From Argopecten irradians (lineage: Eukaryota; Mollusca; Bivalvia; Pectinida; Pectinidae), in assembly GCF_041381155.1 (NCBI RefSeq), contig NC_091134.1, forward strand, positions 12,278,008 through 12,342,007: a DNA stretch of 64,000 nucleotides, in the 5' to 3' direction. Shown here piece by piece: positions 19,991 to 63,460 of this stretch. The translations under genes were made by a program, and so were the position numbers. Position 1 is the first letter of the stretch. The number at the start of each line of letters is the position of its first letter. Below the pieces are notes generated by a model that did not search any database, had not been told where the DNA came from, and saw nothing but the letters and a program-made list of their open reading frames with translations.

Positions 19991-22900
19991 CATTGACAGT
20001 GATCGATGTGACCTCGCATTGTCTCTCTCAGTCATCAATGTGACCTTGTATTGTCTCTCTGAGTCATCAATGTGAACTCGTATTGTCTCTCACTGGACAG
20101 TCATCAATGTGACCTTGTATTGTCTCTCACTGACAGTCATCAATGTGACCTTGTATTGTCTCTCACTGACAGTCATCAATGTGACCTTGTATTGTCTCTC
20201 AGTCATCAATGTGACCTTGTATTGTCTCTCTCAGTCATCAATGTGACCTCGTATTGTCTCTCACTGACAGTCATCAATGTGACCTTGTATTGTCTCTCAC
20301 TGACAGTCATCAATGTGACCTTGTATTGTCTCTCTCAGTCATCAATGTGACCTTGTATTGTGTCTCTCTGTCATCAATGTGACCTCGTATTGTCTCTCAC
20401 TGACAGTCATCAATATGACCTCGTATTGTCTCTCACTGACAGTCATCAATATGACCTTGTATTTTCTCTCACTGACAGTCATCAATGTGACCTTGTATTG
20501 TCTCTCACTGACAGTCATCAATGTGACCTTGTATTGTCTCTCTCAGTCATCAATGTGACCTTGTATTGTCTCTCTCAGTCATCAATGTGACCTCGTATTG
20601 TCTCTCTCAGTCATCAATGTGACCTTGTATTGTCTCTCTCAGTCATCAATGTGACCTTGTATTGTCTCTCTCAGTCATCAATGTGACCTTGTATTGTCTC
20701 TCACTGACAGTCATCAATGTGACCTTGTATTGTCTCTTACTGACAGTCATCAATGTGACCTTGTATTGTCTCTCTCAGTCATCAATGTGACCTTGTATTG
20801 TGTCTCTCTGTCATCAATGTGACCTCGTATTGTCTCTCACTGACAGTCATCAATATGACCTTGTATTGTCTCTCACTGACAGTCATCAATGTGACCTGTA
20901 TGTCTCTCTCAGTCATCAATGTGACCTCGTATTGTATCTCTCTCATCATCAATGTGACCTCGTATTGTGTCTCTCTGTCATCAATGTGACCTCGTATTGT
21001 CTCTCTCAGTCATCAATGTGACCTTGTATTGTCTCTCTCAGTCATCAATGTGACCACGTATTGTCTCTACTTACAGTCATCAATGTGACCTTGTATTGTC
21101 TCTCTCAGTCATCAATGTGACCTTGTATTGTCTTTCTCAGTCATCAATGTGACCTTATACTGCCTCTCTCAGTCATCAATGTGACCTTGTATTGTCTCTC
21201 TCAGTCATCAATGTGACCTTGTATTGTGTCTCTCTCAGTCATCAATGTGACCTCGTATTGTCTCTCACTGACAGTCATCAATGTGACCTTGTATTGTCTC
21301 TCACTGACAGTCATCAATGTGACCTTGTATTGTCTCTCTCAGTCATCAATGTGACCTTGTATTGTCTCTCTCTGTCATCAATGTGACCTCGTATTGTCTC
21401 TCACTGACAGTCATCAATATGACCTTGTATTTTCTCTCACTGACAGTCATCAATGTGACCTTGTATTGTCTCTCTCATGTTCTGTCATCAATGTGACCTT
21501 ATATTGTCTCTCTTTCATCAATGTGACCTCGTATTGTCTCTCACTGACAGTGATCAATGTGACCTTGTATTGTCTCTTACTGACAGTCATCAATGTGACC
21601 TTGTATTGTCTCTCTCAGTCATCAATGTGACCTTGTATTGTGTCTCTCTGTCATCAATGTGACCTCGTATTGTCTCTCACTGACAGTCATCAATATGACC
21701 TTGTATTTTCTCTCACTGACAGTCATCAATGTGACCTTGTATTGTCTCTCTCAGTCATCAATGTGACCTTGTATTGTATCTCTCAGTCATCAATGTGACC
21801 TTGTATTGTCTCTCTCAGTCATCAATGTGACCTTGTATTGTCTCTCTCAGTCATCAATGTGACCTCGTATTGTCTCTCTCAGTCATCAATGTGACCTTGT
21901 ATTGTCTCTCTCAGTCATCAATGTGACCTTGTATTGTGTCTCTCTGTCATCAATGTGACCTCGTATTGTCTCTCACTGACAGTCATCAATATGACCTTGT
22001 ATTTTCTCTCACTGACAGTCATCAATGTGACCTTGTATTGTCTCTCACTGACAGTCATCAATGTGACCTTGTATTGTCTCTCTCAGTCATCAATGTGACC
22101 TTGTATTGTCTCTCTGTCATCAATGTGACCTCGTATTGTCTCTCACTGACAGTCATCAATGTGACCTTGTATTGTCTCTTACTGACAGTCATCAATGTGA
22201 CCTTGTATTGTCTCTCTCAGTCATCAATGTGACCTTGTATTGTGTCTCTCTGTCATCAATGTGACCTCGTATTGTCTCTCACTGACAGTCATCAATATGA
22301 CCTTGTATTTTCTCTCACTGACAGTCATCAATGTGACCTTGTATTGTCTCTCACTGACAGTCATCAATGTGACCTTGTATTGTCTCTCTCAGTCATCAAT
22401 GTGACCTTGTATTGTGTCTCTCAGTCATCAATGTGACCTTGTATTGTCTCTCACTGACAGTCATCAATGTGACCTTGTATTGTCTCTTACTGACAGTCAT
22501 CAATTGTGACCTTGTATTGTCTCTCTCAGTCATCAATGTGACCTTGTATTGTGTCTCTCTGTCATCAATGTGACCTCGTATTGTCTCTCACTGACAGTCA
22601 TCAATGTGACCTTGTATTGTCTCTCACTGACAGTCATCAATGTGACCTTGTATTGTCTCTCTCAGTCATCAATGTGACCTCGTATTGTCTCTCTCAGTCA
22701 TCAATGTGACCTCGTATTGTCTCTCTCAGTCATCAATGTGACCTTGTATTGTCTCTCTCAGTCATCAATGTGACCACGTATTGTCTCTTACTTACAGTCA
22801 TCAATGTGACCTTGTATTGTCTCTCTCATGTCATCAATGTGACCTTGTATTGTCTCTTCTCAGTCATCAATGTGACCTTGTATTGTCCTCTCTCACTGTC

Positions 22901-24023
22901 AGTCATCAATGTGACCATTGCTCTCCACTACAGTCATCAATGTGACCTGTATTGTCTCTCAGTCATCAATGTGACCTTGTATTGTCTCTCTCAGTCATCA
23001 AATGTATTGTGTCTCTCTCAGTCATCAATGTGACCTTGTATTGTCTCTCACTCAGTCATCAATGTGACCTTGTATTGTCTCTCTCTGACAGTCATCAATG
23101 TGACCACGTATTGTCTCTCTCAGTCATCAATGTGACCTTGTATTGTCTCTCTCGTCATCAATGTGACCTCGTATTGTCTCTCTCACTGACAGTGATCAAT
23201 GTGACCTAGTGTATTGTCTCCTTACTGACAGTCATCAATGTGACCTTGTATTGTCTCTCTCAGTCATCAATGTGACCTTGTATTGTGTCTCTCTGTCATC
23301 AATGTGACCTCGTATTGTCTCTCACTGACAGTCATCAATATGACCTTGTATTTTCTCTCACTGACAGTCATCAATGTGACCTTGTATTGTCTCTCACTGA
23401 CAGTCATCAATGTGACCTTGTATTGTCTCTCTCAGTCATCAATGTGACCTTGTATTGTCTCTACTCTGTCATCAATGTGACCTCGTATTGTCTCTCACTG
23501 ACAGTGATCAATGTGACCTTGTATTGTCTCTTACTGACAGTCATCAATGTGACCTTGTATTGTCTCTTACTGACAGTCATCAATGTGACCACGTATTGTC
23601 TCTCTCAGTCATCAATGTGACCTTCTATTGTGTCTCTCTGTCATCAATGTGACCTCGTATTGTCTCTCACTGACAGTCATCAATATGACCTTGTATTTTC
23701 TCTCACTGACAGTCATCAATGTGACCTTGTATTGTCTCTCTCAGTCATCAATGTGACCTTGTATTGTCTCTCTGTCATCAATGTGACCTCGTATTGTCTC
23801 TCACTGACAGTCATCAATATGACCTTGTATTTTCTCTCACTGACAGTCATCAATGTGACCTTGTATTGTCTCTCTCAGTCATCAATGTGACCTTGTATTG
23901 TCTCTCTCTTTCATCAATGTGACCTCGTATTGTCTCACTCTCACAATGTGACCAGTGATCAATGTGACCTTGTATTGTCTCTTACTGACAGTCATCAATG
24001 TGACCTTGTATTGTCTCTCTCTC
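19991..24023. repeat. 4.0-kb minisatellite of 32/36-bp units with higher-order repeats
   Basis: About 120 head-to-tail units of the form agtcatcaatgtgacc-t(t/c)gtattgtctctc plus either 'tc' (32 bp) or 'actgac' (36 bp). Variant units recur in a fixed order: one with 'tgtctctctgtcatcaatg', followed by one with 'atcaatatgacc' and 'gtattttctc'. The marker 'tgtctctctg' starts at 20361, 20801, 21641, 21937, 22243, 22552, 23286 and 23631, giving a higher-order period close to 300 bp in the middle of the array (296, 306, 309). Small indels cluster at 22,800-23,220. All three plus frames are partly open because few units hold a stop. Unit lengths not divisible by three argue against coding. Confidence 0.97.
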
Positions 24024-24677: not shown

Positions 24678-27600
24678 TCACACTCTCCTTGATTTAAATT
24701 TCCCATAGAATTCTCTAAGTTGATCCCAGAACAATAGACTAAGCATTGTGTGGGGCACCAGACGAAGAAAAGATGGTCCCCAGCCCTTGTAGAACCCCCA
24801 CAGCCCCTCCTCCCTGAAGATCTTAAGGTAACAGTCCATTACTCCTCTGTAAAGCAGACCGTTTCCCTGAGAATCAAGTCCCTGGTTGTAAATTCGAGTA
24901 GACACAACGTCAAACGGGGTCATAAACAACGTCACCACTACCCCACTTGTGGTGCTGGCACTTAGTGAAACTAAGGCACTGCCTTCAGCAAACACCTGAA
25001 AATATTTATAAAAGTGAGTATAAAGTTCAACCAAACCTAATATTGTTTTGAGCAAATCGAAACATGGAAATCTTTAAATATTTCTGATAGCTCACACACT
25101 TTAAGTATTTAAATTACATGACTCTATAATGGAAATTTAAAAAGGTTTACTGTTAAAGCAATTCCTATTACATGTAAACAGAATTATCTTCATAGTTAGG
25201 CATAAAACTAGTGTTTAAAATTAGTGAATCCAATTTTACATTCCTAATAAAAAATCAGGCATTAGAAATTTGTGAAATAACTTAAATGTGGGTCATCATA
25301 AACACTCCTTACATTTAATTATATTTTAAGTATTCCAGATACCCTTGATATTTAATTTTTATGAGAAAAATTTGTTTCCTTACAAAATGACTAATGAAAT
25401 CATAGTGAAATTAAAGTAGTTCATCTTTGAAGACAGATCATATAAACCTGTATATTTATGAGGAAACACCAGCAGAAAGGTTGTTTGTATTTCTTATCAA
25501 GAACTCAGGTGAAAAAAGTTTTAAAATTTAATAAATCAAATTTGGCCTTTCACAGAACCAGCATTTGCTGCTATCTGCAATGGATGCTGAGTTTCTGCAC
25601 TGCAGCATTTACTGCCGTCAGCAATGTAAGGGGTATGTATACTTACGGACACCTAGCTGTGCTATCTATAACATTATGATCATTATTACTTCATTTCAAC
25701 CAACAAGTCAGATAATTAAGGACAGAGATGGGACTTATTCCATACTACATCATACCTGATCATGTTTGTGTGGGACTATTATACATGTATCTATTGGTGA
25801 TAGAATGATGATAAAAGACGATATCCTACATAAATGTAAACATCATTTCAGCGGGAAGATTACAAAAAGTTAGGTTCCATCACTACTGCAGATACTATAT
25901 ATTCTCTCATACCTACAAGTGTAATACTGGCTGGTCCAGGGCAATACACCTATGTCGCCTGAAGCTGTTTTGCATGGCTACCCATGCAATAAAGACTAGT
26001 TACGTCACAGCGTCAACAAAATTACCATTTTTTAGACACAATCTTCTTAAGGATGTACTCCTCTGAGAAGTCAAAATTTTCTTGTATTAAACTTTTTTTC
26101 TCATATAGATTTTTGGAAAGAGGAGTTCATACCATGAAAGAAAATGGAAGAAAAAACATATGTTCGTGTGCTCGTTTTTGAGTTATTGTCACTCAAAGAT
26201 ACCAAAATGACAAAATAGTGGATTTTATTGGAATTTCGCCGTTTTGACCACATACACTAGAATTTAAAGCCATAATTTCCTAATGAGGTGTTTGATATGT
26301 ATGGATGTTTGTAGAATTTATTTTCTAGTAGTCTTCATAAAGATATATCAGTTATGATTAATAAGAGTCATATTTTTTCTCAAAATAACAACATATGCTA
26401 CCCCTACCCCTTAATTTTGAGCTCCAAAATGCACCATTTTCAGCCATTTTTGTCAAATTTAATACTTTATAGAAAAAGTTCTGGTATTAAACTTTTGTCA
26501 ATAGTTTGCATATCAATAGGAAAAGGGTTGTTCTTTCTAAATCAGGCAGAAAAATGGGGGGTCCGTGTGCTTACTTTTTTGCCCCATTTAAATATATGTT
26601 ATTTTTCAATATTTTTGACTAAACAATAAAAGTGCTCAAATTACCATTAAATGTTAAAATAAAGTGACAAAAGTGTATCATTTCACACATTAATGTTCAA
26701 TATTTTAATTAACATGATCACAGTGAAGATTTACAGCAAAAATTAACTCGTTACAACTGAAAATGCTGACGCGGTGATGATTTAAGTAAAAACAATTTAA
26801 GTAAAAAATGGGAAAACGATGGCTCTTCTCAAAGCCAAAAAAGACACAATTTCAAAATGGCCGCCAAAATGGGCCATTTCTAAAAATCGCTGTGTAAAAA
26901 AATCTACTAAAAATAGAAATGTAATTTTTTGACAAAATTTGCTACAGACCACATGCTACAGATATTGATAAATCGTATTTGAAAATCTCATAACGTTTAT
27001 GATCTATGTTGAAAGGAGACTTTAATGGGACTGAAACCACAGAAGAATACATTCCTTAACAATTTCTTCTTGAAATTAAGCGGGATTTACTTTAAAAGTT
27101 ACAAACAACTGGATCTGCGTTGAAAATATCAAAGGATGTTTTATTTATGGAGATTTGACTTGCAGTCACGGTTTTTTTCCTAATTTATTTCCAAAATGGC
27201 AGAAATTAAATATTAAAGTAAAAGTGCAAGAAAAAGTCGAGGTTTGAGAGAAAAATACTCTTTCATACGCAGATATGAAGGATAGGGATATTCTATCCTG
27301 AGGATCAGAAAATGTTGTAAAACCCTCTGCAAGCCTCGGATTTTACAACATTTTGTGACCCTCGGTTAGAATATCCCTATCCTTCATATTCACGTATGAA
27401 AGAGTCTTTTAGTACAAGTCCTGCACAAATGTCATTGGGTATCATGTTCTATATGAATTAGTCCTATGGTATACAGAAACTTAGCTAACCTTTTTCTTGG
27501 CCAATGCTTCTTTGATTTTGGAGAAGGTGGTAAGTTGAACTGCTGATCCAATGGTCACCCTGGTCATAGCGGCAAACGCACCCCTCCAGAGCCCCAGAAC

Positions 27601-30214
27601 TCCGCCCTCGCTATATACACTACGAAAAGCTCCCCTCATACTCTGATGGTCGTGTTGGTATCCCACTGCTATCTGCTGTACAGATTTCGACTGGAGATGT
27701 GTTTTCACCTACAAGAGAATTGTATATTATGTGAAGTTATTAATTGTAATGGTGTACATGTCAACAAACCTTAAAACAATGTAAGCAAGTCAAAATCTCA
27801 CAATTCTAGTCAACAAACATCTCTAATTAAGAATGAGAAGCTTTTGTCTTGGATACTTTTTGCAGTCAAAATGATTTATATTAATTATTGTAACTTCATT
27901 CTTATATTTTGATTACCAGTTCCTTAATTTATATCATAAAAGAGAAATAATGTAAATAATACTGTGAACTTCATTAATACACCGCATAATTAATGTTCAG
28001 AGATGTCTGGAACACTAAATAAACTTTAAAGTAACTCCCTGCTGAAAGCTCATTTCTCTTAATTAATTGATCATTGACTCTAAATAAGTTATTGTTTTAT
28101 TTCTAGGGGCTGCTGTGGCTCGATATATGACTGCGAGTTTGAATCCCATGTAGGGCAGTTGGCAAGTACTGATCGCTGGTCGGTGGTTTTTCTTTGGGTA
28201 CTCCGGCTTCCTCTACCAACAAACCTGGCATGCCCTTAAATGACCCTGACTGTTAATATGATGTTAAACTAACCAAACCAAATCAAACCAATATGGAATC
28301 TTTAACTACCATATATGGACTGCCCTTATACTACCATATAAAATGGACTGCCCATATACTTACCATATACAAGAGGCCCAGAGGGCCTGTATCACTCACC
28401 TGGTTTGTAATGTCAAGTCATGTTCTGAATACAGGTTCATTGTTTCTTTTCTGAAGGAATTTGAATATTTACCTCTTATTTCCCTATTGGGCCCCGCCCC
28501 TCCTGCCCCCCGGGGGGGTCAGAGCCAAAATTTATACAAGTTCTGTTCCCCTTCCCTCAAATTTGGTTACAATCCATGCAGAACTCTATGACTAGTAGCG
28601 TTTTAAAGGAAAATGTTGACGGACGGACAGACGACATTCATGCAGAACTCTAGGACAAGTAGCGTTTTATAGGATTTACCTCTATTTCCCCTATTGGGCC
28701 CCGCCCCTCCTGCCCCGGGGGGTCAGAGCCAAAATTTATACAAGTTCTTTCCCCCTTCCCCCAAGGATGTTTGTGGCCAAATTTGGTTACAATCCATGCA
28801 GAACTCTAGGACAAGTAGCGTTTTATAGGATTTACCTCTATTTCCCCTATTGGGCCCCGTCCCTCCTGCCTCCAGGGGGTCAGAGCCAAAATTTATACAA
28901 GTTCTTTCCCCCTTCCCCCAAGGATGTTTGTGGCCAAATTTGGTTACAATCCATGCAGAACTCTAGGACAAGTAGCGTTTTATACGATTTACCTCTATTT
29001 CCCCTATTGGGCCCCGCCCCTCCTGCCCCCAGGGGGTCAGAGCCAAAATTTATACAAGTTCTTTCCCCCTTCCCCCAAGGATGTTTGTGGCCAAATTTGG
29101 TTACAATCCATGCAGAACTCTAGGACAAGTAGCGATTTATAGAATTTACCTCTATTTCCCCTATTGGGCCCTGCCCCTCCTGCCCTCGGGGGGTCAGAGC
29201 CAAAATTTATACAAGTTCTGTTCCCCTTCCCTCAAGGATGTTTCTGGCCAAATTTGGTTACAATCCATGCAGAACTCTAGGACAAGTAGCGTTTTATAGA
29301 ATTTACCTTTATTTTCCCTATTGGGCCGCGCCCCTCCTGCCCCCGGGGGGTCAGAGCCAAAATTTATACAAGTTCTGTTCCCCTTCCCTCAAGGATGTTT
29401 GTGGCCAAATTTGGTTACAATCCATGCAGAACTCTATGACTAGTAGCGATTTAAAGGAAATGTTGACGGACGGATGGACGACGGACGCCGCGCCATGACA
29501 TAAGCTCACCGGCCCTTCGGGCCAGGTGAGCTAAAAATGGACTGCCCATATACTTACCATATAAAATGGACTGCCCATACTTACCATATAAAATGGACTG
29601 CCCATACTTACCATATAAAATGGACTGCCCATACTTACCATATAAAATAGACTGCCCATACTTACCATATAAAATAGACTGCCCATACTTACCATATAAA
29701 ATGGACTGCCCATACTTACCATATAAAATGGACTGCCCATACTTACCATATAAAATAGACTGCCCATACTTACCATATAAAATAGACTGCCCATACTTAC
29801 CATATGAAATGGACTGCCCATACTTACCATATAAAATGGACTGCCCACACATGCTCCAACACTGCCTGCCAGTGCTCCAGCAGCGATACTTTTATAAATC
29901 ACCACATCTCCGTTCCTATCTTTGGTGAGTCCGTAGTTCACGAAGACTTGATATGTACCCAGACGGAATCCATTCATTGTCATCTGATACCACAGCGCTG
30001 GCACAAGACCATTTTGAAGCTTGATAAGTCCATCCTTTTTAGCAATGGTGTAAAACGCATGCAAGGCATTACGGTAATGGACTGTATACTTTCCCCGAGC
30101 TTTGAGCTCTCCCTGGAGTTGCATGCGCGTTTTAACAACTTCCAAAGGATTCGTGAAGAATCCGGCACAACTGGTACTGAGAGCACCAATAAGAAATTCC
30201 TCAATCTGCGCCAT
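24678..30214 (-). CDS. SLC25A35: Mitochondrial solute carrier, SLC25A34/SLC25A35 type
   Basis: Three phase-0 coding exons, 30214-29828 (129 codons), 27708-27490 (73) and 24995-24678 (105 plus TGA), give a 307-residue protein; human SLC25A35 is about 300. Each third carries the carrier signature: [18 protein letters not shown] (residues about 20-37), GSPFYMVKTHLQ at the exon 1/2 joint, and [15 protein letters not shown] in exon 3. These proteins sit in the inner mitochondrial membrane with six helices and exchange small anions; the substrate of this branch is poorly known. The start codon matches the family start just before the first helix. Exon 1 ends at ATG with a GTAAGT donor inside the second signature motif. 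That end and its donor are amplified into a 27-bp array. Intron 1 holds a Helentron-like element and a SINE; intron 2 holds the foldback and TTAA elements. A34 and A35 cannot be told apart by eye. Confidence 0.92.
25755..25910. repeat. Dispersed repeat, copy in intron 2 of the carrier gene
   Basis: 'catgtttgtgtgggactatt...gataaaagacgatatcctac...cagcgggaagattacaaaa' matches 30,605-30,730 on the same strand, one copy on each side of most of the carrier gene. No coding potential. Confidence 0.65.
25940..27410. repeat. Foldback element with long palindrome (copy 2)
   Basis: Same order of parts as 540-990: 'gcatggctacccatgcaata', 'gcgtcaacaaaatta', a region with 'aaaatggcagaaat', and a palindrome at 27,257-27,405 with arms of about 65 bp around a short loop (ctctgcaagcctcgg). 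A separate element with TTAA ends sits inside at 26,051-27,055. Confidence 0.65.
26051..27055. mobile_element. Non-autonomous element with TTAA target duplication (piggyBac-like)
   Basis: Flanked by TTAA at 26,047-26,050 and 27,056-27,059. The ends are inverted: ggatgtactcctctg at left against the complement of cagaagaatacattcc at right. The interior (1 kb) is non-coding. TTAA duplication is typical of piggyBac-type transposases; the family assignment rests only on this. Confidence 0.55.
28108..28290 (+). mobile_element. tRNA-like SINE
   Basis: The head carries a B-box-like 'gagtttgaatcccatg'; the body includes 'gggtactccggcttcctct'; the tail is 'gaccctgactgttaatatg' followed by A-rich (accaaa)n. 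The same element occurs at about 63,790-63,960, and a piece in opposite orientation at 49,019-49,140. It shares its 3' tail with the SINE at 15,093-15,566. Confidence 0.65.
28314..29850 (-). repeat. 27-bp minisatellite made of exon end plus splice donor
   Basis: Units read on the minus strand gggcagtccattttatatg followed by gtaagtat. Eleven units run from about 29,550 to 29,850 and one or two more lie at 28,314-28,372, separated by the Helentron-like insertion. Each unit is exactly the last 19 bases of SLC25 exon 1 plus its GTAAGTAT donor. The period of 27 keeps the frame, adding nine codons (VSMGSPFYM or close variants) per unit with no stop. Variants carry L for P or H for Y. The unit next to the gene body (donor at 29,826-29,827) gives the normal family junction. 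Confidence 0.95.
28371..29533 (+). mobile_element. Helentron-like (pearl/HINE-type) element with 157-bp tandem core
   Basis: Left end acaagaggcccagagggcct (hairpin) then actcacctgg; right end a near-perfect hairpin agctcaccggcccttcgggc/caggtgagct. The subterminal ctcacctgg and the right-end ccaggtgag are inverted but asymmetrically placed. Between them are six core units, four at exactly 157 bp, with 'gggccccgcccctcctgccc' and 'aaggatgtttgtggccaaat'. The element sits inside the 27-bp minisatellite with no target duplication beyond 0-1 base. The architecture fits the bivalve 'pearl' elements and Helentron-associated elements; no protein is encoded. Confidence 0.75.
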
Positions 30215-42213: not shown

Positions 42214-45200
42214 CTAATTCGTCATAGGAATAATGACATTGACAAGTTCTTGTCCCTCACCAACTTGCAGCTGTATTTGATTAAAAAGCTGGGCGGCTTG
42301 ACCGTTCTCCAGTGTAATGACAGTGCCTTCCTCGAGCACATTCGTTACGTCTTGTTCAATAGGAACCTCCTCAGTCGTATTCAGATCGCCCAACATGGAC
42401 TCGTCGTGATCGGTGGAAACATGTATTTTGAATTCCTCCAGTTCACCAAATATTCTTTCGCAAATTCCACATTTATACAATGTATGCGACATATCTTGGC
42501 TCTCATCTACGATACTTGATGTTTCAGCAATAACATTATCTGTTGTTTCAGCAATAACATTATCAGTAGCAACTTCGCTTTGAGCTGCTTTCTCTACAGG
42601 ACATCTATGTCTGCTGAGAGATTCCTTGTAAAAGTACCCCTTGCCACATGTTGGGCAGTTATACTGTATGCATCCGGGAAGTCTGTCGTGCCTCTCTACC
42701 TCATGTTTCCTATCTATATGCATATGAAACGACTTCTTTGCCTTAAACATGCGCTGGCAAACATCACATTCATATTGGAACTCGGTCTTGATCCCACCAG
42801 TTGGGCAGACACTTTTGTGCTCAATCAAATCCTTTTCTTCTCTAAACAGTGCTTCACATCCAGCGCATTTGTACGCTTGGTACTCTGGGTGAATATTGAT
42901 ATGGGCTTTGAATGATGTCTTATATCGAAAGCTCTTGTTGCAAACTTCACAACGGAATGGTTTCTCTCCGGTGTGGACTACTTTATGTCTCTCCATCTCG
43001 TGTGGCTGTCTGAAGACTTTGCCGCAATAATTGCACGTACTACTTTTCTTGGGCGGCCTTTTGGATACCTTCAATTCCCCAGAGTGAGCTCTCTTTAAAT
43101 GCCACTTCATATGCCGCAAGCGTTTACCACAAATGTGGCATACTGATTTACCATCGCCTGCAGAATGATGATACTTTTGGTGGCGTCGCAATCCAGCGAA
43201 TGTACTGAACTGTAAGCCGCAATCTGGACAACAAAAGAGTTCTGGATGTTCGTGGTATCTCAAATGTCTCAGAAAGTTTGCCCGAGATGTAAACTTCTTT
43301 GCACAGTATGGACAAAGCGCAGCTTCAAAACTGTGGTTTTTCATATGCTCAGCCAAAACCGTCCTTGACTTCAAAATCTTGTTGCAGATTTCACACTGAA
43401 GTACTTTATGATGTTCATCAAAATGGTTCCTTATATGCTTCTGGAAACTTTTCATGGTGGATAGTGTTATTCCGCAAACTAAGCATTCATGCCTATCACT
43501 TGAGTATAAACAGGTATGGACAGACATATGACTCTTCAAAGTGTTCATATTATCAAATGATTTTCCACATATTGTACAGAGACATCCTCCAACCTTGTGC
43601 CTATCTAAATGATTCAGAAGATCCGGTCTGTTGCGATATACACTGTTGCAAATAATGCAAGGATGAATCCGCTTGTCGTCGTCAGGTCGAACTTTGTGAA
43701 CCTTTAAGATGTGCTCATCCAATGCAGCAAATGTGGTATGATCCTGATTACATTCCATACACCGAATGGTCATGATGCCATGGAATAAAGTTTTGTGACT
43801 CTCTAAATTTTCCAAAGGAACAAACAGACCACATACCTCACAAGAACGTTTCCCCATCTTAGTCTGTTTTGGATTCAAGTCTCCATTTTCGAAGTCCAAA
43901 ACATCCTTTTTTCCTTGTTTATTCGGCACATTTTTCTTTTCCTCAGCAGGTTCTTCCCTGGTTTTTTCATCGCCTACATTATTTCCAACAGCAGATATGT
44001 CTTTCACTCTATCAATCGCTGCAGCATCCTGTACCAATGTCGTTAAATCATTATTCTTTTCTTCAATTACTTGCACAGATGAGTATTCCGAACTTGTCAT
44101 AAAACTTCCGATATCAGACATAACTGGTGTCAAATTTTCAGCGGGAACATCTGTTCCAGGAGGAGACATGTCACGGTCTTGATTAGCTGTTTCCTTGGTA
44201 ATTTTGAATGGTTGGTCATCAACAATTTCCTCCGTATTTAGAATGATGCTCAACAAACTCTGGTTGTGCAGATTATGGATATGTTCCGACAGTTGACTAA
44301 TGTAATAGAATGCTTCACCACATATACGGCAGCGCCACCTCACGACGTTTTTGTGATGTAATCGGTGGTAAGAGGCTTGCTTATTTGAACTCAACACCAA
44401 GGGGCATGATCTGCAAACATATGCTTTCTTCGCGTTTGGGTTGGAACACGTGTAGAGCTGTACTTTCTGCTCGGTCAAACTTAAATTTAAATCATCAGTG
44501 TTCAAAGAGTGACTCTTTGCATCATTATCCTGAAGCGATTTAGCTGCATCCCTCCTTGCCTGTTTCCTTAATCGTTTTGCTTTAGAAGGCGCTATCTTAA
44601 TTTTTTCCTTTTGGTGTTCTTGGTTTGTACCGAAAGTAGAATCTGTATCGAAAAATTGTGGGTCAAAGTCGTCAACATCGATATTACTATCCTCTTGCTG
44701 ACAATTAAAGGAACACTTTCTGACAACTTTGTCAAATTGTGTCGATGTATTTTCCACTTCTTTCATTCTTCCAAAACTATCGATTAGAAAAGTGAACTTC
44801 CCTCGGTCACTTGTATTTAAAACAATGCTTTTACACCCACCACTCTTTTGCAGTACCAAGGTCTTCTGCATTTGAACTGTTAGATTTGAGTGCCAGCCTG
44901 TTACGTGACGGCTGGTATCTTCTTTTGTTTTGTAATGTCGGCCGCAATACACACACAGCCAATCGCGGTCTGGAAGCATGGTTTTCTCCAATAGCCCATC
45001 CCATTCATCAGTTTTCTTTAAAAAATGTCGGGCCCATGGTCCATGAATGTTGTGCACATGGGCAACATGTTGAATTCCTGTCAGCTTGTTGGACAACTCC
45101 TTATGGCATTTGTGACATTGCCATTGTTTCTTGTTCTGTGCATGTGTGTTTGAAGATTCATCATCCTTGTGTTGGTAATTTTCCCAGCTCAGATAGAATA

Positions 45201-46305
45201 TGTTTGTATGCGTTACATTAAGTTCTTCAGTGGAAGTTACAAATGGCAAATCTGTTTCATCATCAATGATTTCTGTATCAGATTCTTCTCTTTCATCATC
45301 GAAGAATGAATACGTCTTTTTATCCCATACACTGGTATTCTCTTTCAAACTTGGGGACTTTTCTAAATCCACTTCTCTGATTTTCCCCTTAGAATCAATA
45401 TGATAGCTCCTGGTAACATCTCCTGGCAAGGACAGCACAATAAGTTTAGGACCGCCAGATTTTGTAAGAAGAACATCAGCAGCCATATCGTTTGATAAAT
45501 CAGGATGACAGTCTTTTATATGCTGTGTGGCATGTGCTTGATTTGTGTAATCACGCCCACAAAGTACACAGAGAATGTCACGCTCCAGATGAAATTCATC
45601 CTCAAGTTTCTTGGTCTTCGAGTCTTGTTCTGGGGCAATCTGCCGAACATGATAACGTGCCCATGGTCCATATATTTCATGAGGAAATCGCATATGTCTC
45701 AAAACTGCCTTTTTGGTAGGTAGCCGTTTACCACATTTGATACATTTCCATGGTTTCTGGTCTTTGTTGTATGGGTCAAGTTCTTCTTCGTCTTCTGTGT
45801 CAGCCAAATTTTCATTGTCCTCGGAAACATTATCCTCATTTGCCATTTTATAAACCTCGACCTTTGTCGCGAAGAACTTTTTGCTAGATGCTTCCTGCCA
45901 TTTCTCCTGAACTACATAAGATTTTGCATCTTCTCTGGTAAATCCATGTTTGAGCATCAGATGCCTGAGGACGTCACATTTATGGAAATAGTAAATTGTA
46001 CATAAACCACATCTCCAAGGTTTATTGTATCCGTGTTTGGATCGACCGCGTTCGGAAATTACGAGTTGTGTTTCATCCTCATTTTGCTCCTGTTTCACTG
46101 CCTCAGCCTCATTTTCTGCTACGGGGTCTGTAGAGTTGTCATCCTCTTCTCCAATAGTTGTCTTAATATTACAGTCCACAAGAACTTGAATTATGTTTGC
46201 TTTGATGTCACTGTCATTAACAATATGCTGCTTGACAATGTGCCGCCTTGTGGAAGATTTAGAGACATACAATGACTCGCATATTTTGCACTTCCATCTT
46301 ATCAT
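42214..46305 (-). CDS. C2H2 zinc-finger protein, about 23 fingers (3' part of a split reading frame)
   Basis: An uninterrupted 1363-codon frame from ATG 46305 to the stop at 42214. I count about 23 C2H2 fingers. Those at residues 1-480 are widely spaced, often starting W-x-C. After acidic linkers a denser C-terminal series follows (about 690-1290), with one canonical TGEKPFRC linker. Residues 184-313 and 393-517 are two copies of one module: a finger, a GPWAR motif, a second finger, then an (L/T)-x-KSGG-x-K-x-IVL segment. The protein is probably a nuclear DNA-binding regulator. The frame continues, without shift, the 46324-48194 exon upstream: only TAA and six codons lie between them. So this ATG is probably not an independent start but the continuation of one large protein, unless the locus makes two products. 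Confidence 0.93.
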   Translation of the reverse strand: MIRWKCKICESLYVSKSSTRRHIVKQHIVNDSDIKANIIQVLVDCNIKTTIGEEDDNSTDPVAENEAEAVKQEQNEDETQLVISERGRSKHGYNKPWRCGLCTIYYFHKCDVLRHLMLKHGFTREDAKSYVVQEKWQEASSKKFFATKVEVYKMANEDNVSEDNENLADTEDEEELDPYNKDQKPWKCIKCGKRLPTKKAVLRHMRFPHEIYGPWARYHVRQIAPEQDSKTKKLEDEFHLERDILCVLCGRDYTNQAHATQHIKDCHPDLSNDMAADVLLTKSGGPKLIVLSLPGDVTRSYHIDSKGKIREVDLEKSPSLKENTSVWDKKTYSFFDDEREESDTEIIDDETDLPFVTSTEELNVTHTNIFYLSWENYQHKDDESSNTHAQNKKQWQCHKCHKELSNKLTGIQHVAHVHNIHGPWARHFLKKTDEWDGLLEKTMLPDRDWLCVYCGRHYKTKEDTSRHVTGWHSNLTVQMQKTLVLQKSGGCKSIVLNTSDRGKFTFLIDSFGRMKEVENTSTQFDKVVRKCSFNCQQEDSNIDVDDFDPQFFDTDSTFGTNQEHQKEKIKIAPSKAKRLRKQARRDAAKSLQDNDAKSHSLNTDDLNLSLTEQKVQLYTCSNPNAKKAYVCRSCPLVLSSNKQASYHRLHHKNVVRWRCRICGEAFYYISQLSEHIHNLHNQSLLSIILNTEEIVDDQPFKITKETANQDRDMSPPGTDVPAENLTPVMSDIGSFMTSSEYSSVQVIEEKNNDLTTLVQDAAAIDRVKDISAVGNNVGDEKTREEPAEEKKNVPNKQGKKDVLDFENGDLNPKQTKMGKRSCEVCGLFVPLENLESHKTLFHGIMTIRCMECNQDHTTFAALDEHILKVHKVRPDDDKRIHPCIICNSVYRNRPDLLNHLDRHKVGGCLCTICGKSFDNMNTLKSHMSVHTCLYSSDRHECLVCGITLSTMKSFQKHIRNHFDEHHKVLQCEICNKILKSRTVLAEHMKNHSFEAALCPYCAKKFTSRANFLRHLRYHEHPELFCCPDCGLQFSTFAGLRRHQKYHHSAGDGKSVCHICGKRLRHMKWHLKRAHSGELKVSKRPPKKSSTCNYCGKVFRQPHEMERHKVVHTGEKPFRCEVCNKSFRYKTSFKAHINIHPEYQAYKCAGCEALFREEKDLIEHKSVCPTGGIKTEFQYECDVCQRMFKAKKSFHMHIDRKHEVERHDRLPGCIQYNCPTCGKGYFYKESLSRHRCPVEKAAQSEVATDNVIAETTDNVIAETSSIVDESQDMSHTLYKCGICERIFGELEEFKIHVSTDHDESMLGDLNTTEEVPIEQDVTNVLEEGTVITLENGQAAQLFNQIQLQVGEGQELVNVIIPMTN

Positions 46306-46323
46306 TTTGGTTTGGAATTTTTG

Positions 46324-49300
46324 TTATACACACATCATTGCCCTCCGTCTATTTCGTCTCTCCGTATTGCGTTGTTCTGCTGTCTTCTTTGAGGGTTTTC
46401 CATTGTTGTCCGATTGCTGATTGTCTACACTAACTAAAGCTATGTTTCTCTTGATACAGGATGGAGCATCTTCTTTACTTTTGCAATGTGTCATACGAAC
46501 GTGAGTTAGTGCATTGTTTTCTGTACGCATTTTCAATTCACAAATCAAGCATGTATATGAAGTCACTTCTTTGGTTTTCAGGAAACTGAGCAGCTCTTCT
46601 TGAACACTTGTGTTCATTCCTTTTGGAGTGATAAGATTTACAATTTTTTTTGAAAATTTTTCTTCAATTTCTTCATCATTACAGAGATTGTGTTCCGTCC
46701 TGACATGGTTTCGTATGTCTGTCTCTGAGTACTCCACAGCTTCACATTGTTTACATGACCATATCTCTGGGTTGACAGAATATTGTTTCGTTTTAGCCTT
46801 CCTCTTCCTTTCAGCCATTTTCTTGGCTTTGTGAAGAGGTATGACACGTTTTTCTTTTTCCATTTTTTTAGCTGGTAGTTCCTGTAAGTTACATGCATTC
46901 AGAAATGTCAGTTTTTTCTGTGAGCCGTTGCTGTTCTTATTTTGGCGTAACGCAGATCTTTTACCGAAGATAGATTTCTCTTTCATTGATGAAGAATATT
47001 TTTTTCCTAAGATAGACTTCTCTCTTTCTTTCTTCCTCCCAACAACCACCACCCTTCTATCTATAGCACCCGATCTGATTCTAGTTGTCATTCTTTGTCC
47101 TAACATGTGATCCAGAGGATTGGTTACAGTGGAAGACTTTTTCTCTGAGGTATTGTGATGGCCATCCTTATCAGGGACATAATCTTCATCCATGTCGTCC
47201 GAAAAGTCTTCATTTTCACTTTCTGAATCATTAGGAACATCTGAGAGGTGATCAATTTCCACATGTTTCTGTCCGAGAACTCTTGGGCTTCCAGCATGAT
47301 ATGAATGATCACTAGTGATGTCTCCAGTGTCAGGGAATCTTGTATTACTTGAATCTTCATTTATCAACGTCTCTCTGCCCTCATTGATATCTTGTCCCAT
47401 ATTATCTCTATTCTCTTCTCGTTTTACAAGCTGTCTATGAAAAAGCAAACTGTTTTCATGAAGCTCAGAAGAAGTTTTGGAAGTTTCAGTTTGGCCTCCC
47501 CTTGACAGCTTAGATGGTCTTCCTCTTCCACGTTTAGGTGTTGTAGAAATACTGGTTTTCTCTGCGGTACTAGGTGTTTCTGAAGATGGCCTCTCTATAG
47601 ACAATTTCCTTGGTCGACCTCTCCCATGTTTTACGCTGTCTGCACTACTCACTTTTATCTCAATTTTAGCTGCTCCCGAAGCTGGTGCTTGAATAAGATA
47701 CATCCTTGGTCGTCCTCTTCCACGTTTTTCACTTGTTCCACTTATCACCTTCTGAACATGTTTAGATGTTTCAGGAGATGATGGGTCTGGAGAGTATTTC
47801 TTTGGTCTACCCCTACCTCTTTTCTCGCTTGTCTTCTCACTCACGTCGCCAGTCTTCCTAGACATTTCATCAGCTGGACTACAAGTGGGATATTTTCTTG
47901 GTCGCCCTCTTCCTTGCTTTCCCTTTGTGCCCTCATCAGTCAAATCATTAATACTACTAGATACCCCAGGAGAAGTTGGATTTATTGTGCTTTGTGTCTG
48001 ACTTGGTGTCAGTTTTCCTAATTTGTCTTGACTCGCTTGTAATTTGCAATCATTGGTAGTCACCTTCTTAACTTTTTCTGGAACTGTATTTTCTGTGTTC
48101 AGTAGTTTCCGCTTGGTGTATTCCCGTCCTGACCTTGTCTGCGTCACCGTAATCTGAGTCATTGTTGATGCATTCTTTGTTCCACTCTCAGAACCTGTAA
48201 AACAATACATTTCTGTAAGATTGGTGCAAATTGGACTGTACATTTTTATTGTGTCAATGAGTAATTATTAAAGGTGCATAAATGTAACTGAAAAGACTTT
48301 TAATTTGTGCAATGTAACTTTAAGATGAGATTGATGATTTTGTAGAATCCCAAAAGTTACTGGCTTATTGTAAATAGAACACTTATCATAAGTTCCTGAA
48401 CAATTTTGAAATATTTGGGGGAGGGAGCATGACAATATGCCATGAGGCAAAATAGCGCAATTAACTTTGATTCTTAACATAAATCAAAGTAATATGTGCC
48501 GTAATTTTCACACTCACAAATCGAGAAGAGCTTTTCATATGTTATTCACCATCAAAAGTTACCACGATTTTGAGAATTACACTACTTAAAATGCCTAGGT
48601 TTTGATTTTACAAAGTCAATTATATTTAAGCTTTTGAAATGAGTATGAATGGTTAGATCAGGAGGTCAAGTTAACATTTTCACAGTGTTCTAAGCAATTT
48701 AAAGTGACTTATGCAAATATGTTTTCATTCTGTACAGTACAAGTTTATAGTGTTGTAACCAATGTTTATAAGGCATCATATATACATGTTTACCTATGCC
48801 TTTGAATGATTTCCAAAGTTTTTTTCAGGTTATTGATATAGATTGATGTTCTGATTTTTTTCATGTGTTATTGAAAATATTTGAATTTGTGTTTCCAAAA
48901 CATAGCGAGCCTTTTATAAGCATCTATGGAAACCAATTTATTTTCCCCTGCATTAAAATTTTGAATATATTTCACAGGTACAATGAGTCACAACAAAATG
49001 TTTTGGTTTCATTAGCTTAATGCCCTATTGACAACCAGGGTCATGTAAAGATGTGCCAGGTTTGTTGGTGGAGGAAAGCTGGAGTACCATGAGAAAAACC
49101 ACTGTCGATACCTGGCAACTGCCCCACAAGGGATTCCAATTTTATTTGATGAATTAGACCTTGAATGATGGTCAAGGTCATTAATTTGAATGAACTTGGT
49201 AGCTCTTCATCCCAGCATGTCACAGGCCCAATATCAGATCTCTAGGCCTCTTGTAATTCATGAGAAGTTGTTTAAAGATTTTAGCCTATTTAACTCCTGT

Positions 49301-58400: not shown

Positions 58401-61400
58401 TTTCGTAATACTTATATCTCTGATGTTTCTTTTGGGTCGTTGTTTAGTTGTTCATGTCTGATCTGAAGTGATGGTAGTTTCAGATCCTCTAGCATTCTTG
58501 TAACGTATAACCTTCCTCCCTGGTCTTGTAGAAGTTGGAAATTAATCTGGCTGCTAGTCTTTGTATTCTTTCAAGTTTGTCAATGTCTTTTTTGATATAA
58601 GGGTCCCAAATTATTGCACCGTATTCAAGAATAGAGGGCACCAGTGAAATATACCGGGTATGCTATTTTTTTGCATGTAGTTGGGCAGTGTTTGAGTTTC
58701 TGTTTTAGAAAACTTAATGTGGAGCTAGCTTTTTTTGCTATTTTTGTAATATGAGTGTCCCATTTCAAATCGTCCGTAACTGTAAGACCAAGATATGGGT
58801 TGTGTTTTACTTGCTCCAGGATATGTCTGTTTAAGGTGTAGAATTTTTACTTTTTTTTTTATCTTTTATTGACGTTTTTGCATTAAACTTCATTCCCCAA
58901 TTGTTTGCCCAATTGTTCAAAATTGTGTAGCTAGGTCATCCTGTGTTTCTCGGTATAGGAGACAGTCATCTGCAAAGAGTCGTACTTTTTAAACTAACAC
59001 AATCAGGTAGATCATTGATGTGACAGCTAGCGAAACAATAGCGGTCCGAAATAATACTGTTCCCTGAGAGAATTCTCCTTCAAGGGCTATACTCCCATCT
59101 GACGCTGTGTCAGGAAGATTGTGAGAGCCACTAATGTGTAGATTTCCTTTGATACTGTATTGGATCAGCTTGTGTAGGAGTTTTTGGTGGCCGTGGTACA
59201 GTGTCAAATGCTTTTGAAAAGTCGAGGATGGCTAGATTGACTTGTTTGTTTTTATCGTATTATTTCATGAGGTCATCCATAGTGACGGCAAGTTGTGTTT
59301 CACAAGTAAAATCCAGAACGAAATCCATGATTGAACGATGTCAAGATGTTGTGATGCTCTAGATGGTTAAGCATGTGTTTACAAATAATGTGCTCTAGCA
59401 GCTTGCATGGTACCGATGTTAATGATACTGGTCTATAATTCTCTGCTGCATGTCGTTCTCACTTTTTAAAAATGGCCTATATGTTTGCGCACAACCAATC
59501 TGTCAGTAGTAGTCCAGTATTTAGGGAGCTTTAAAATATTGCTGATAGTCTGGGAGAAATTTGTACAGCACATTCCTTAAGTATTCTAGCTATTTGTGAT
59601 GTTGTCGGGTCCAGGTGCTTTTGTTGGATTCACTTTGCGTAATAGCTTGGTAAGGCCGTCTGTTCTAATTGTTATATTTCCAATATGAGATTTTGCTGTT
59701 TTGGTTGTTGATGGCATGGTGTGTCCTTGATCTTCTTTAGTGAACACGGATCAAGGTCACACCATTTATTTCTTCAAAATGGTACGATTGTGATAGCTTT
59801 AAAAAAAACTTAACAAGCCATTTTTGATTTTTAGCTCACCTGGTCCAAAGGACCGAGGTGAGTTTATGGGATACCGCAGCGTCGGTCGTCCATCGTCCGT
59901 CAACAATCGACTTCTTCTCCATAAACGCTGGTCGGATTTCAACAAAGTTTGACTGGTAGTATCCTTATGGGCTAATTACTGAAAATTGTACAAATGATGG
60001 GGCTGATCCCCCGGGGGCCTTAGGGGCGGGGACAAAAGCGGTCAATTTGGCTCTTTCCATATAAACGACTTCTTCTCTGAAACCAAGCATGGGATATATA
60101 GCACCCATAATGCAATGGTAGCATCCTTATAGGGTGGGGATTCAAAATTGTACAAATGATGGGGCTGACCCCCCGGGGGCCTGAGGGGCGGGGTCAAATG
60201 GGGTCAATTTGGCTATTTCCATAAAATGACTTCTTCTCTGAAACTAAGCAAGAGATAGCACTCATAATGCAATGGTAGTATCGTTATAGGGTGGGGATTC
60301 AAAATTGTACAAATGATAGGGCTGACCCCCAGGGGGCCTGAGGGGCGGGGTCAAAAGGGGTCAATTTGGCTATTTCCATATAAACGACTTCTTCTCTGAA
60401 ACCAAGCATGGGATATATAGCACCCATAATGCAATGGTAGCATCCTTATAGGGTGGGGATTCAAAATTGTACAAATGATGGGGCTGACCTCCCGGGGGCC
60501 TGAGGGGCGGGGTCAAAAGGGGCCAATTTGGCTATTTCCATATAAACGACTTCTTCTCTGAAACTAAGCATGGTATAGCACCCATAATGCAATGGTAGTA
60601 TCCTGATAGGGTGGGGATTCAAAATTGTGCAAATGATGGGGCTGACCCCCGGGGACCTGAGGGGCGGGGTCAAATGGGGTCAATTTGGCTATTTCCATAA
60701 AATGACTTCTTCTCTGAGACTAAGCAAGAGATAGCACTCATAGTGCAATGGTAGTATCGTTATAGGGTGGGGATTCAAAATTGTACAAATGATGGGGCTG
60801 ACCCCCAGGGGGCCTGAGGGGCGGGGTCAAAAGGGGCCAATTTGGCTATTTCCATATAAACGACTTCTTCTCTGAAACTAAGCATGGTATAGCACCCATA
60901 ATGCAATGGTAGTATCCTGATAGGGTGGGGATTCAAAATTGTGCAAATGATAGGGCTGACCCCCCCCCCCCCCCCCGGGGGGCTTGAGGGGCGGGGTCAA
61001 AACGGGTCAATTTGGCTATTTCCATATAAATGACTTCTTCGCTGCAACTAAGCATGGTATAGCACCCATAATGCAATGGTAGCATTCTTATAGGGTGGGG
61101 ATTCCAAATTGTGCAAATGATAGGGCTGACCCCCGGGGGCCTGAGGGGCGGGGTCAAAAGTGGTCAATTTCCATATAAATGACTTTTTCTCTGCAACTTA
61201 ACATGGGATTACGCTGATAATGCAATGGTTACATCCTTATAGAGTTTGGATTCAAAATTTTGCAAATGGTGGGGCTGACCCCCGGGGGCCTGAAGGGTGG
61301 GGTCAAAAGGGGTTAATTTAGCTATTTCCATATAAATGACTTCTTCTCTGCAACTTAGAATGGAAGAGCACTTATAATGCAATGGTAGCATCCTTATAGG

Positions 61401-63460
61401 GTTGGGATTTGAAATTGTACAAATGATAGGGCTGACCCCCGGGGCCTTAGACGGCAATACATGTAGATGCGAGGTCAAAAAGGTCAATTAGGCTACTACT
61501 TTCATATAAATTACTTTGTCTCTGAACCTATGTATTGGATAGCATATTTGTATGGTATCAATAGCATCATTGTATGGTTGTGATTCAAAATTAAACTTTG
61601 GAAGTCAATTTTGCTTATTTTTCTAATTGTTTTAATTGTGATAATTACTAACAAAAAACCAGGTGAGCGATACAGGCCCTCTGGGCCTCTTGTTATATAG
61701 CCTAGTCTTTCTTTCTCTCTTCACTTTTCTCTCTCGACTCTATTTCAAAAGCACAAAAAAGGAAACATAATGACATTCAAGTCCTAGATTGTTCAATTGT
61801 CTGCATGCTGAGGTTTAATCAATAGTTCATGTGTAACTGACTGCTCTCAAGTGTAGTAATATAGAAATTCCTTATGATAAATCTGAATCAAATTGTTTAT
61901 TCTATTTAAAGTGATTAGTCGGGCAAAGAAAACCGGTCTAAATGCGTTCATTGGCCTTCCAGAAGTTCTCACTTATCAATACGACGCTCAAGTTATGCTT
62001 AGTTTCCCAGTTCTTACCATTAAAGTAAAGAAAATTTGAAAGCATTGAAAACGAGGCTGCGTGGAAATGTAACCACGGACATAGTGAGCCGGGAGGACGT
62101 TTTAGAATTCTCATACTTTAAATAAAATTTCTTCGTACGCAGACAGATTTTGGCGAGAGATTTTATTTTTCTATTTCACAAGAAATTATACTGGATACAT
62201 TCACACCAATTTTACTGACTTTAGCCATCCTTGCCCGACTGTTCACTTTAAGCATTATTCTCAATATATTCTCAATATCTTTGATTTCATAACCCCAAAA
62301 GGTATTAAGAATAAAGCTTATGATTTAATTCATTTAACTCACTCAGGTATATTAATTAGGCATAAACTTCAGTGATTTTACTTACTTTTACATTGAAACA
62401 AATTGAGTTGTGGCGCAGTGATATGTTATCCAATAATTCAGTTTGGCTATAATTAGACTGTATCGATTTTAAAATTCCCCACAAAACCGTTTTGTAAATA
62501 TGACTTCATAATAGTTGACATACAATTCTTTCAGTTTATGGGAAAATAACCTCAAAGATCTAACCAATAGAAATGAGTGTAACATACAGAATTAAATTAT
62601 ATTTCAATATAAAGATAGATAGAAGTTGAAAACTTTAACACTAAGACATTATATCAAATGTTTTGACTTGTGGTCAATTCACATCAACGTAACGACATAT
62701 ATACGGTAGTGTGTAATAGGAAATTTTGATTGATTTGGCAATTACATGTACTTGCAGATTAAAACACCAATTAAACATGAGTTCTGAAAACTGTTGTAGT
62801 CCAACAGTGACTTGTTCTCTTATATTTTGAAGATTAACCCAAAGAGAGGCTCTGATGAACTACAGCTTTTCTTACACCAAAAGTCAGGACAGCCGAACAC
62901 TTCAAGAAGCAGCAGAACGGGAACGAGCACGTTTACGGAATGAGCAATTTCTGCAGGTATGTAAACTGCATTAACTAAGTATTTTTACATAACTACATAA
63001 ATTTTCAATATTTCAGATATTGTTAGCACTGCCGTTATATCAGCCCCATAACAAAACTGAAGGCAATTTCAGGTCTACAAAGTTTTCCTTTGAAGATTAA
63101 GCAGCAACGTTGTCCAACTTCAAAGTCATACAGTGTATCTTAAATTTATATTTAATTCTTTTGATGTAGACCAAATAACCAAACTATTTATCTCATCTAT
63201 TGTCGCACACAGAAGCTTCAATTTTACTATAAATTGTATATGACACAGACCAGGGGTGGATATAACAACTGTGATGATATACATAATCCACAAAATAATA
63301 AAGCACAACTAAATAATTTTTTAAAGAGAATTTTTTATTTCAATATATGTACAGCAATTTCTTCATGAACACTTTGTTGTTACAGAATATCGCTGACACT
63401 GAAGAAATGTTGGGGGCAGAGGCGGCTATTCCCCCTAGCCCAAGACTGACTACACTGCAG
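55306..63460 (+). CDS. CEP15: CEP15 (C3orf14)-like centrosomal protein, 5' three exons (continues beyond window)
   Basis: Exons 55306-55412 (copy B), 62833-62956 and 63386-63460 join in phase to 102 codons. Across the first joint, AT plus A makes Ile, giving LSRLHEEILTQREALM. I recall human C3orf14 as LSKRHEEIVSQR near its N-terminus. Later pieces also fit: NEQFLQNIADTEEML against NLSLLKDIEAAEKSL, and PPSPRLTTLQ against HPLPRPEVVSLE. The fragment is a charged coiled coil with a basic N-terminal extension (MKRPSDPRYD) longer than in human. CEP15 is a small centrosome/cilium-associated protein; its molecular role is poorly defined. The remaining exons, with the W-x-E-(F/Y) tail, would lie to the right. 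The first ATG has G at -3; an in-frame ATG further up is AT-rich and judged 5'UTR. The assignment rests on memory of one human sequence. Confidence 0.65.
55608..55695. mobile_element. Short MITE-like hairpin in CEP15-like intron 1
   Basis: cacaggggtttgacgttctg at left mirrored by cgaacgtcgaacttctgtg at right. Confidence 0.65.
56256..56942. mobile_element. hAT-like non-autonomous element nested in the LINE
   Basis: Ends cagggacgatacactgatg and ctctgtatcgtcccag (inverted, imperfect). Target duplication is about ggactta on both sides (56,247-56,253; 56,943-56,949). The interior repeats 'atcgtgatatgtat' twice near the right end. No transposase frame. Confidence 0.6.
57212..57590 (+). mobile_element. 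SINE-like retroposon nested in the LINE
   Basis: Same element as 15,093-15,566, starting gtagggcgttagaattgtac and ending in a short caagcaaacaa tail. It lacks the internal 'gctgttaatagg' section. Flanks tctcctatt and tctccaatt look like a 9-bp target duplication with one change. It splits the LINE frame between LSNLA and KMAFHPGKCQ. Confidence 0.75.
58150..59760 (-). mobile_element. LINE relic, jockey/CR1-like reverse transcriptase
   Basis: Minus strand in order: LRKVNPTKAPGPDNI (near 59,600), NYRPVSLTSVPCKLLEHI (near 59,430), FTCETQLAVTMDDLMK and NLAILDFSKAFDTVP (59,210-59,320), a short 'QGT' and LAVTSMIYLIVL near 59,000, LERIQRLAARLISNFYKTRE (near 58,540), and NCEQYRNSFFVCTVIDWN (near 58,310). 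These are successive motifs of the RT domain and its C-terminus. Many breaks; not functional. It lies in CEP15-like intron 1. Confidence 0.88.
59832..61693 (-). mobile_element. Helentron-like element with about ten 157-162 bp core repeats
   Basis: Read on the minus strand it starts acaagaggcccagagggcct...gtatcgctcacctgg and ends with a hairpin (ctcacctcggtcc / ggaccaggtgagct). Core units contain 'aggggcggggtc' at 60022, 60184, 60341, 60503, 60660, 60817, 60987, 61144 and a variant at 61294; spacing is mostly 157 or 162. The 170 step is due to a poly-C tract at 60,960. The GC-rich part of the core matches the core at 28.5-29.4 kb, but the rest does not. Confidence 0.8.
61700..62832. other. Last part of CEP15-like intron 1, no feature seen
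   Basis: AT-rich; no repeat family or exon recognised before the acceptor at 62,831-62,832. Confidence 0.45.
63022..63275. mobile_element. MITE, third diverged copy of the 40,777 family
   Basis: Shares 'aaaactgaaggca', 'tttcctttgaaga', 'gtccaacttcaaag', 'tcttttgatgta' and 'caggggtggatataacaa' with the copies at 40,777 and 49,678. It lies in intron 2 of the CEP15-like gene. Confidence 0.6.

Follow-up and report, generated by a model that had tools for sequence, protein, structure and literature searches.

A tandem array of splice donors at the end of exon 1 of an SLC25-type carrier gene in Argopecten irradians, in which the most upstream donor probably dominates

The window analysed here is a stretch of 64,000 nucleotides from Argopecten irradians, in which an SLC25-type mitochondrial carrier gene sits on the minus strand with its ATG at 30214. 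The gene model has phase 0 junctions between exons 1 and 2 and between exons 2 and 3, and consists of the following parts:

29828–30214, minus strand: coding exon 1 (387 nt, 129 codons), open from the ATG at 30214 and ending in ...GSPFYM
27490–27708, minus strand: exon 2 (VKTHLQ...), phase 0 at both ends, acceptor TTGTAG/GTGAAA
24678–24995, minus strand: exon 3 with the stop codon, acceptor TTTCAG/GTGTTT

The spliced product of 307 aa matches the Pfam family Mito_carr (PF00153) in three stretches (199.9 bits, E 4.5e-60), and its best relative among the PDB structures compared is UCP1 (8g8w; E 8.8e-34), to which it aligns without a gap at the exon 1/2 junction when no residues are inserted there. 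We take the carrier to be SLC25A34/35-like. Intron 1 is 2.1 kb long, and exon 1 may be the first exon of the transcript. Downstream of the carrier stop codon, at 19997–24021, a 32-bp unit (CAGTCATCAATGTGACCTTGTATTGTCTCTCT) is repeated over 4 kb (117.5 copies by TRF); this array can also be fitted with a period of 136 bp and has several plus-strand open frames of 60–114 codons.

The boundary between exon 1 and intron 1 is occupied by a minisatellite in which the splice donor itself is repeated, and which is interrupted by an inserted element. The features of this region are as follows:

29550–29846, minus strand: block of 11 contiguous 27-bp units, each consisting of 19 nt of exon end and GTAAGTAT
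29820–29827, minus strand: donor 1 (GTAAGTAT), presumed authentic, which joins SPFYM to VKTHLQ with no insertion
29550–29819, minus strand: donors 2–11, ten identical copies, each ATG/GTAAGTAT
29547 / 28363, minus strand: split copy of the unit, interrupted by the Helentron-like insertion
28356–28363, minus strand: twelfth intact donor (GTAAGTAT), with the insertion and in-frame stops lying between it and the block
28301–28353, minus strand: two decayed distal copies (starts 28353 and 28325), whose donors now read GGTAGTATAA and GGTAGTTAAA
28370–29533, strand not assigned: non-autonomous Helentron-like (HINE/Pearl-type) element inside the array, its ends uncertain by a base or two
28392–28399, minus strand: possible strong donor CAG/GTGAGTGA, brought in by the Helentron-like element

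TRF reports the 27-bp array at 29534–29847 with 11.6 copies, 97% matches and a score of 575, and direct reading finds 14 copies starting GGGCAGT, namely the 11 contiguous units, the split copy and the two distal ones. Within the block, unit starts run from 29846 to 29576 on the minus strand, and the first unit is the true end of exon 1 with its own donor. The consensus reads GGGCAGTC(C/T)ATTT(T/C)ATATG, followed by GTAAGTAT. Just two of the 27 columns vary (column 9 is T in 4 of the 11 units and column 14 is C in one), giving three unit types, and the donor columns are invariant; with so few variable columns, selection cannot be read from that invariance. Units 3–6 and units 7–10 form identical 108-bp blocks, which suggests that the array grew by blocks. 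The period-4 pattern of variants in the block is weak, as 24 of 330 arrangements are equally good. Outside the block, the last block unit and the split copy both carry GTAAGTATAT, the measurable step between them is 29 bp and the next measurable distal spacing is 28 bp; the frame-keeping period is thus confined to the proximal block. The decayed end of the array adjoins a dispersed, SINE-looking segment at 28100–28290, with AAACTAACCAAACCAAATCAAACCA near the segment's end, which in our estimation resembles the molluscan V-SINEs.

These observations bear out the earlier note in its central point, that the end of exon 1 and its donor are repeated in tandem, the donor GTAAGTAT being kept in 12 of the 14 copies. 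The note had further stated that every unit keeps an intact donor and that the 27-bp period preserves the frame without stops; both statements are correct for the contiguous block, but the first fails over the full span of 28314–29850 that the note had assigned to the array, since the two distal donors have decayed, and the second fails at the distal steps of 29 and 28 bp. The array is indeed present in that span, but about 1.16 kb of it is the Helentron-like element, which the note did not mention.

The inserted element is unrelated to the 27-bp unit. It contains internal 157-bp repeats (5.2 copies by TRF, at 28639–29458), a terminal palindrome at its right end (29503–29532, with arms 29503–29515 and 29520–29532), a 9-bp subterminal inverted repeat (28395–28403 and 29522–29530) and a GGAC microsatellite, and no clear target-site duplication was seen by eye at its oligo-T/A target. 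The Cg_HINE/Pearl elements of bivalves are described, in the cited part of PMC7492417, as having central repeats of ~160 bp, a 3′ palindrome, subterminal inverted repeats, a GTCC-type microsatellite and a T-rich target without duplication. Likened to that description, the insertion shows all of these features, with an inverted repeat of 9 bp compared with the 11–12 bp given there for HINE (PMC7492417). A difference is that the 27-bp unit here comes from the gene and not from the element. An origin of the unit as part of a mobile element was rejected, as the coding end of exon 1 forms part of the unit, which is itself split by the element. Because array units flank the element on both sides, its insertion would be later than the array, and its point of entry appears to have been the T-rich stretch within a distal unit. 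The donor CAG/GTGAGTGA at 28399 has a U1 duplex energy of −13.0 kcal/mol; no other GT/GC site in the scan of 30330 to 27709 reached so low a value, and in-frame stops lie before it. A second array in the window, at 59982–61444, has a basic period of 157 bp, with alternative fits at 319 and 476. Local alignment shows its unit and the 157-bp repeat of the inserted element to be related to each other in reverse orientation (score 65, compared with at most 20 in 200 shuffles), and by this likeness the locus probably holds a relative of the Helentron-like element.

Donor strength was measured as U1 pairing energy over the same scanned interval. All 12 intact donors share the 11-mer ATGGTAAGTAT, each with a duplex energy of −11.0 kcal/mol, and the array donors have nine contiguous matches to the U1-complementary consensus, at steps of 27 nt. 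The equality of the donors that had been claimed before is thus confirmed, and among the 11 donors of the block position or context, not strength, must decide. Donors 2–11 begin at 29800, 29773, 29746, 29719, 29692, 29665, 29638, 29611, 29584 and 29557. Counted on the coding sequence, the 11 block donors fall at nucleotides 387, 414 and so on to 657, all in frame 0 and with no stop, the first in-frame stop past the block being at 29531–29533. By sequence, use of donor n+1 would add 9n residues, from 9 to 90, with a predicted insertion point at SPFYM/VKTHLQ, within carrier signature 2; donor positions and gene model agree with the earlier proposal on this point.

The preservation of frame might be read as a sign of selection. 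We simulated 60,000 duplications spanning the donor, each taking 9–40 nt of exon 1 and 6–12 nt of an intron beginning GTAAGT, and 30.5% of them were in frame and open, a proportion that rose to 91.8% when the period was divisible by three. A ladder of in-frame donors is therefore an easy accident, and selection as the cause of frame preservation was rejected. The weight that the earlier note had placed on the frame is reduced accordingly, by the simulated fraction of ~0.305 and by the distal spacings.

RNA structure was considered in two further respects. The predicted opening cost at donor 1 is 6.22 kcal/mol, compared with 3.41 to 5.71 kcal/mol for donors 2–11, with the lowest value at donor 11. 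Local accessibility was thus rejected as a reason for the use of donor 1, which is the least accessible of the 11. The 11 consensus units fold into a long hairpin of −109.3 kcal/mol; however, 33 of 300 arrays of 11 circular-dinucleotide-shuffled units fold as well or better (z −1.30), as do 37 of 300 in which the donor was fixed and the rest of the unit permuted (z −1.06). Structure as the reason for the array was rejected, the fold being unremarkable against shuffled units.

Arrays of this architecture are already known in human genes, among them the minisatellite of IFI6 (6-16, G1P3), which has a unit of 12 bp, and hence steps of four residues, and lies at an exon–intron boundary. The title of Turri et al. 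1995 states that it provides multiple splice donor sites, and the cited portion of PMC4526556 reports that two downstream repeat units are used as donors, giving three mRNA species. The likeness to the carrier array lies in minisatellite units that supply multiple donors; the gene and the unit are different, and downstream donor use is reported in that account of IFI6, whereas such use here is a prediction. Human F7 carries 37-bp repeats at the donor of intron 7, of which only the most upstream is normally used, according to the passage of PMC6627357 that cites Borensztajn 2006 for the repeats; a period of 37 bp breaks the frame, whereas 27 bp keeps it. Human CBS has a 31-bp VNTR, c.1444_1467+7(16_21), of 16–21 copies, whose numbering as given in PMC2630376 implies 24 exonic and 7 intronic bases, much like the 19 and 8 of the carrier unit, and whose period again breaks the frame. 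The earlier note's statement that it knew of no described gene with such a donor array is therefore contradicted by these sources, in the parts cited. Other papers on VNTRs and splicing deal with genes such as ABCA7 and TERT. The carrier array is an exon–intron-boundary minisatellite with repeated donors of the IFI6, F7 and CBS kind, and a neat new example of it. Its distinctions are modest: a frame-keeping 27-bp coding unit in a conserved transporter, and the Helentron-like insertion. Keeping the frame may itself not be unique, given the 12-bp unit of IFI6. A literature search for such arrays in molluscs returned nothing relevant by title or opening of the abstract, which is no proof of absence.

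We propose that a stretch across the exon 1 donor, comprising 19 nt of exon and 8 nt of intron, was duplicated in tandem and later expanded, which gave each unit of the block its own copy of the original donor. Splicing would mainly use donor 1, the most upstream: where donors are of equal strength, the advantage tends to lie with the one that is transcribed first and is closest across the exon, as has been reported for F7. The remaining donors would be copies that do little harm, their use adding 9n in-frame residues and no stop, and occasional use of donor 2, donor 3 and so on would insert VSMGSPFYM-like repeats into signature 2. On this analysis, dominance of donor 1, with the array as a tolerated minisatellite, has a probability of about 0.7, and of the two outcomes that the earlier note had offered, dominance of a single donor appears, by analogy, better supported than a series of length isoforms. 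Only use of donor 1 yields a carrier free of an insert, which supports this reading, and the identity of units 3–6 and 7–10 fits the proposed expansion. Further support comes from studies of donor choice. Where minigenes offered a pair of identical donors at a distance of 52 nt, splicing under exon definition went exclusively to the upstream donor, and transcriptome-wide the upstream of near-equal donors was preferred in 60% of events, as reported in the cited parts of PMC9225289. The same source places the change to exon definition at an intron length of 200–250 nt, which the 2.1 kb of intron 1 exceeds, and this too supports the upstream donor.

Several observations count against dominance of donor 1. 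Downstream donors are used in IFI6, according to the sources cited for it; the predicted opening energy is highest at donor 1; and the weak period-4 pattern adds a further reservation about the proposed course of events. If exon 1 is the first exon, results obtained on internal exons are no direct model for it. A further case is the 68-bp duplication of CBS, in which the competing sites are reportedly on the acceptor side. The more distal of the two duplicated sites is strongly favoured there (PMC2630376, in the part cited), which also counts against the most upstream donor. Finally, the lengthened products keep Mito_carr in three stretches, falling from 199.9 bits with no inserted unit to 187.9 with one and 184.6 with ten, a loss of just 12.0 and 15.3 bits. 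An insertion in signature 2 would probably entail a loss of transport; the profile can bridge the insert, so the modest loss of score is weak evidence of damage.

In another reading, use is spread over several or all donors at similar rates, and carriers longer by 9, 18 and up to 90 residues are made, perhaps altering transport or tuning the amount of functional carrier. It draws on the 11 identical in-frame donors without a stop, and on IFI6, which makes three mRNA species from such repeats in the account cited above. However, the insertion hits a conserved signature and lowers the family score, if modestly, an in-frame and open arrangement is expected in ~30% of such duplications and the measurable distal spacings are no multiples of three, and we consider this reading unlikely. 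That all or many of the 11 donors are used, so that the carriers form a graded series in which signature 2 holds anything from 0 to 10 copies of the 9-residue insert, we regard as distinctly unlikely; if it were true, alleles differing in copy number would change the set of isoforms directly. A preference for the far end of the block would instead give an mRNA carrying most of the array, with a repeat insert of 90 residues. The older rule recounted in PMC9225289, by which the downstream member of a donor pair prevails across the intron, agrees with such an outcome, as do the ~60% downstream preference (2,497 of 4,171 events) found in that source without a strength filter and the low opening cost of donor 11. 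The cited text ties this preference to intron definition and short introns, however, whereas the carrier intron measures 2.1 kb, and in its minigenes, where the donors were equal and the introns 365 nt long, splicing went to the upstream site; the long insert would also fall in a conserved carrier. That the block's last intact donor is the one that wins therefore seems very improbable.

The extra donors may also be thought of as U1-binding sites that make no isoforms, serving as an intronic enhancer or platform, either to strengthen donor 1 or to guard against early polyadenylation. U1 bound downstream has a general role of this kind, and every 27 nt, in each unit, nine contiguous bases match the 5′ end of U1. 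Against this stand the lack of any sign of selection, with donor constancy uninformative when only two columns vary, and the loss of the donor from both distal copies, and such a function has little probability in our judgement. An error of assembly, with a wrong copy number or an array expanded by the assembler, is the remaining alternative. The identical 108-bp blocks would be consistent with it, and elsewhere in the window an SLC6 exon is broken by an exact tandem duplication of 49 bp, which makes local assembly or haplotype errors possible. By contrast, the three unit types, the decayed distal copies and the unit split by an insertion point to a real, older array, evidence that covers the existence of the array and not its exact copy number; an artefact is most improbable.

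The locus offers a natural test of spliceosome choice, in which 11 identical in-frame donors at a fixed 27-nt step differ mainly in position and each outcome leaves an mRNA that can be read as a distinct length. Taken together with human IFI6, F7 and CBS, this molluscan array suggests that exon-end minisatellites recur, and the usual dominance of one donor may be the reason that they are tolerated.

Two other loci of the window are recorded here. The 49-bp duplication lies at 1320–1418 on the minus strand, inside an exon of an SLC6 (sodium:neurotransmitter symporter) gene; as 49 is no multiple of three, the reading frame is lost after LPWASCDNA and the coding sequence goes on in a different one. 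Either the allele or gene is broken, or the duplication is an artefact of assembly or haplotype. At 42214–46323 and 46324–48264, also on the minus strand, two long open frames abut in the same frame with one TAA between them, the one encoding 1369 aa rich in C2H2 zinc fingers and the other 646 aa without a Pfam match. The 646-aa frame contains repeated GRGRP(R/K/S) motifs, which we take to be AT-hook-like, and the whole of 42214–48264 is possibly one large exon interrupted by a stop.
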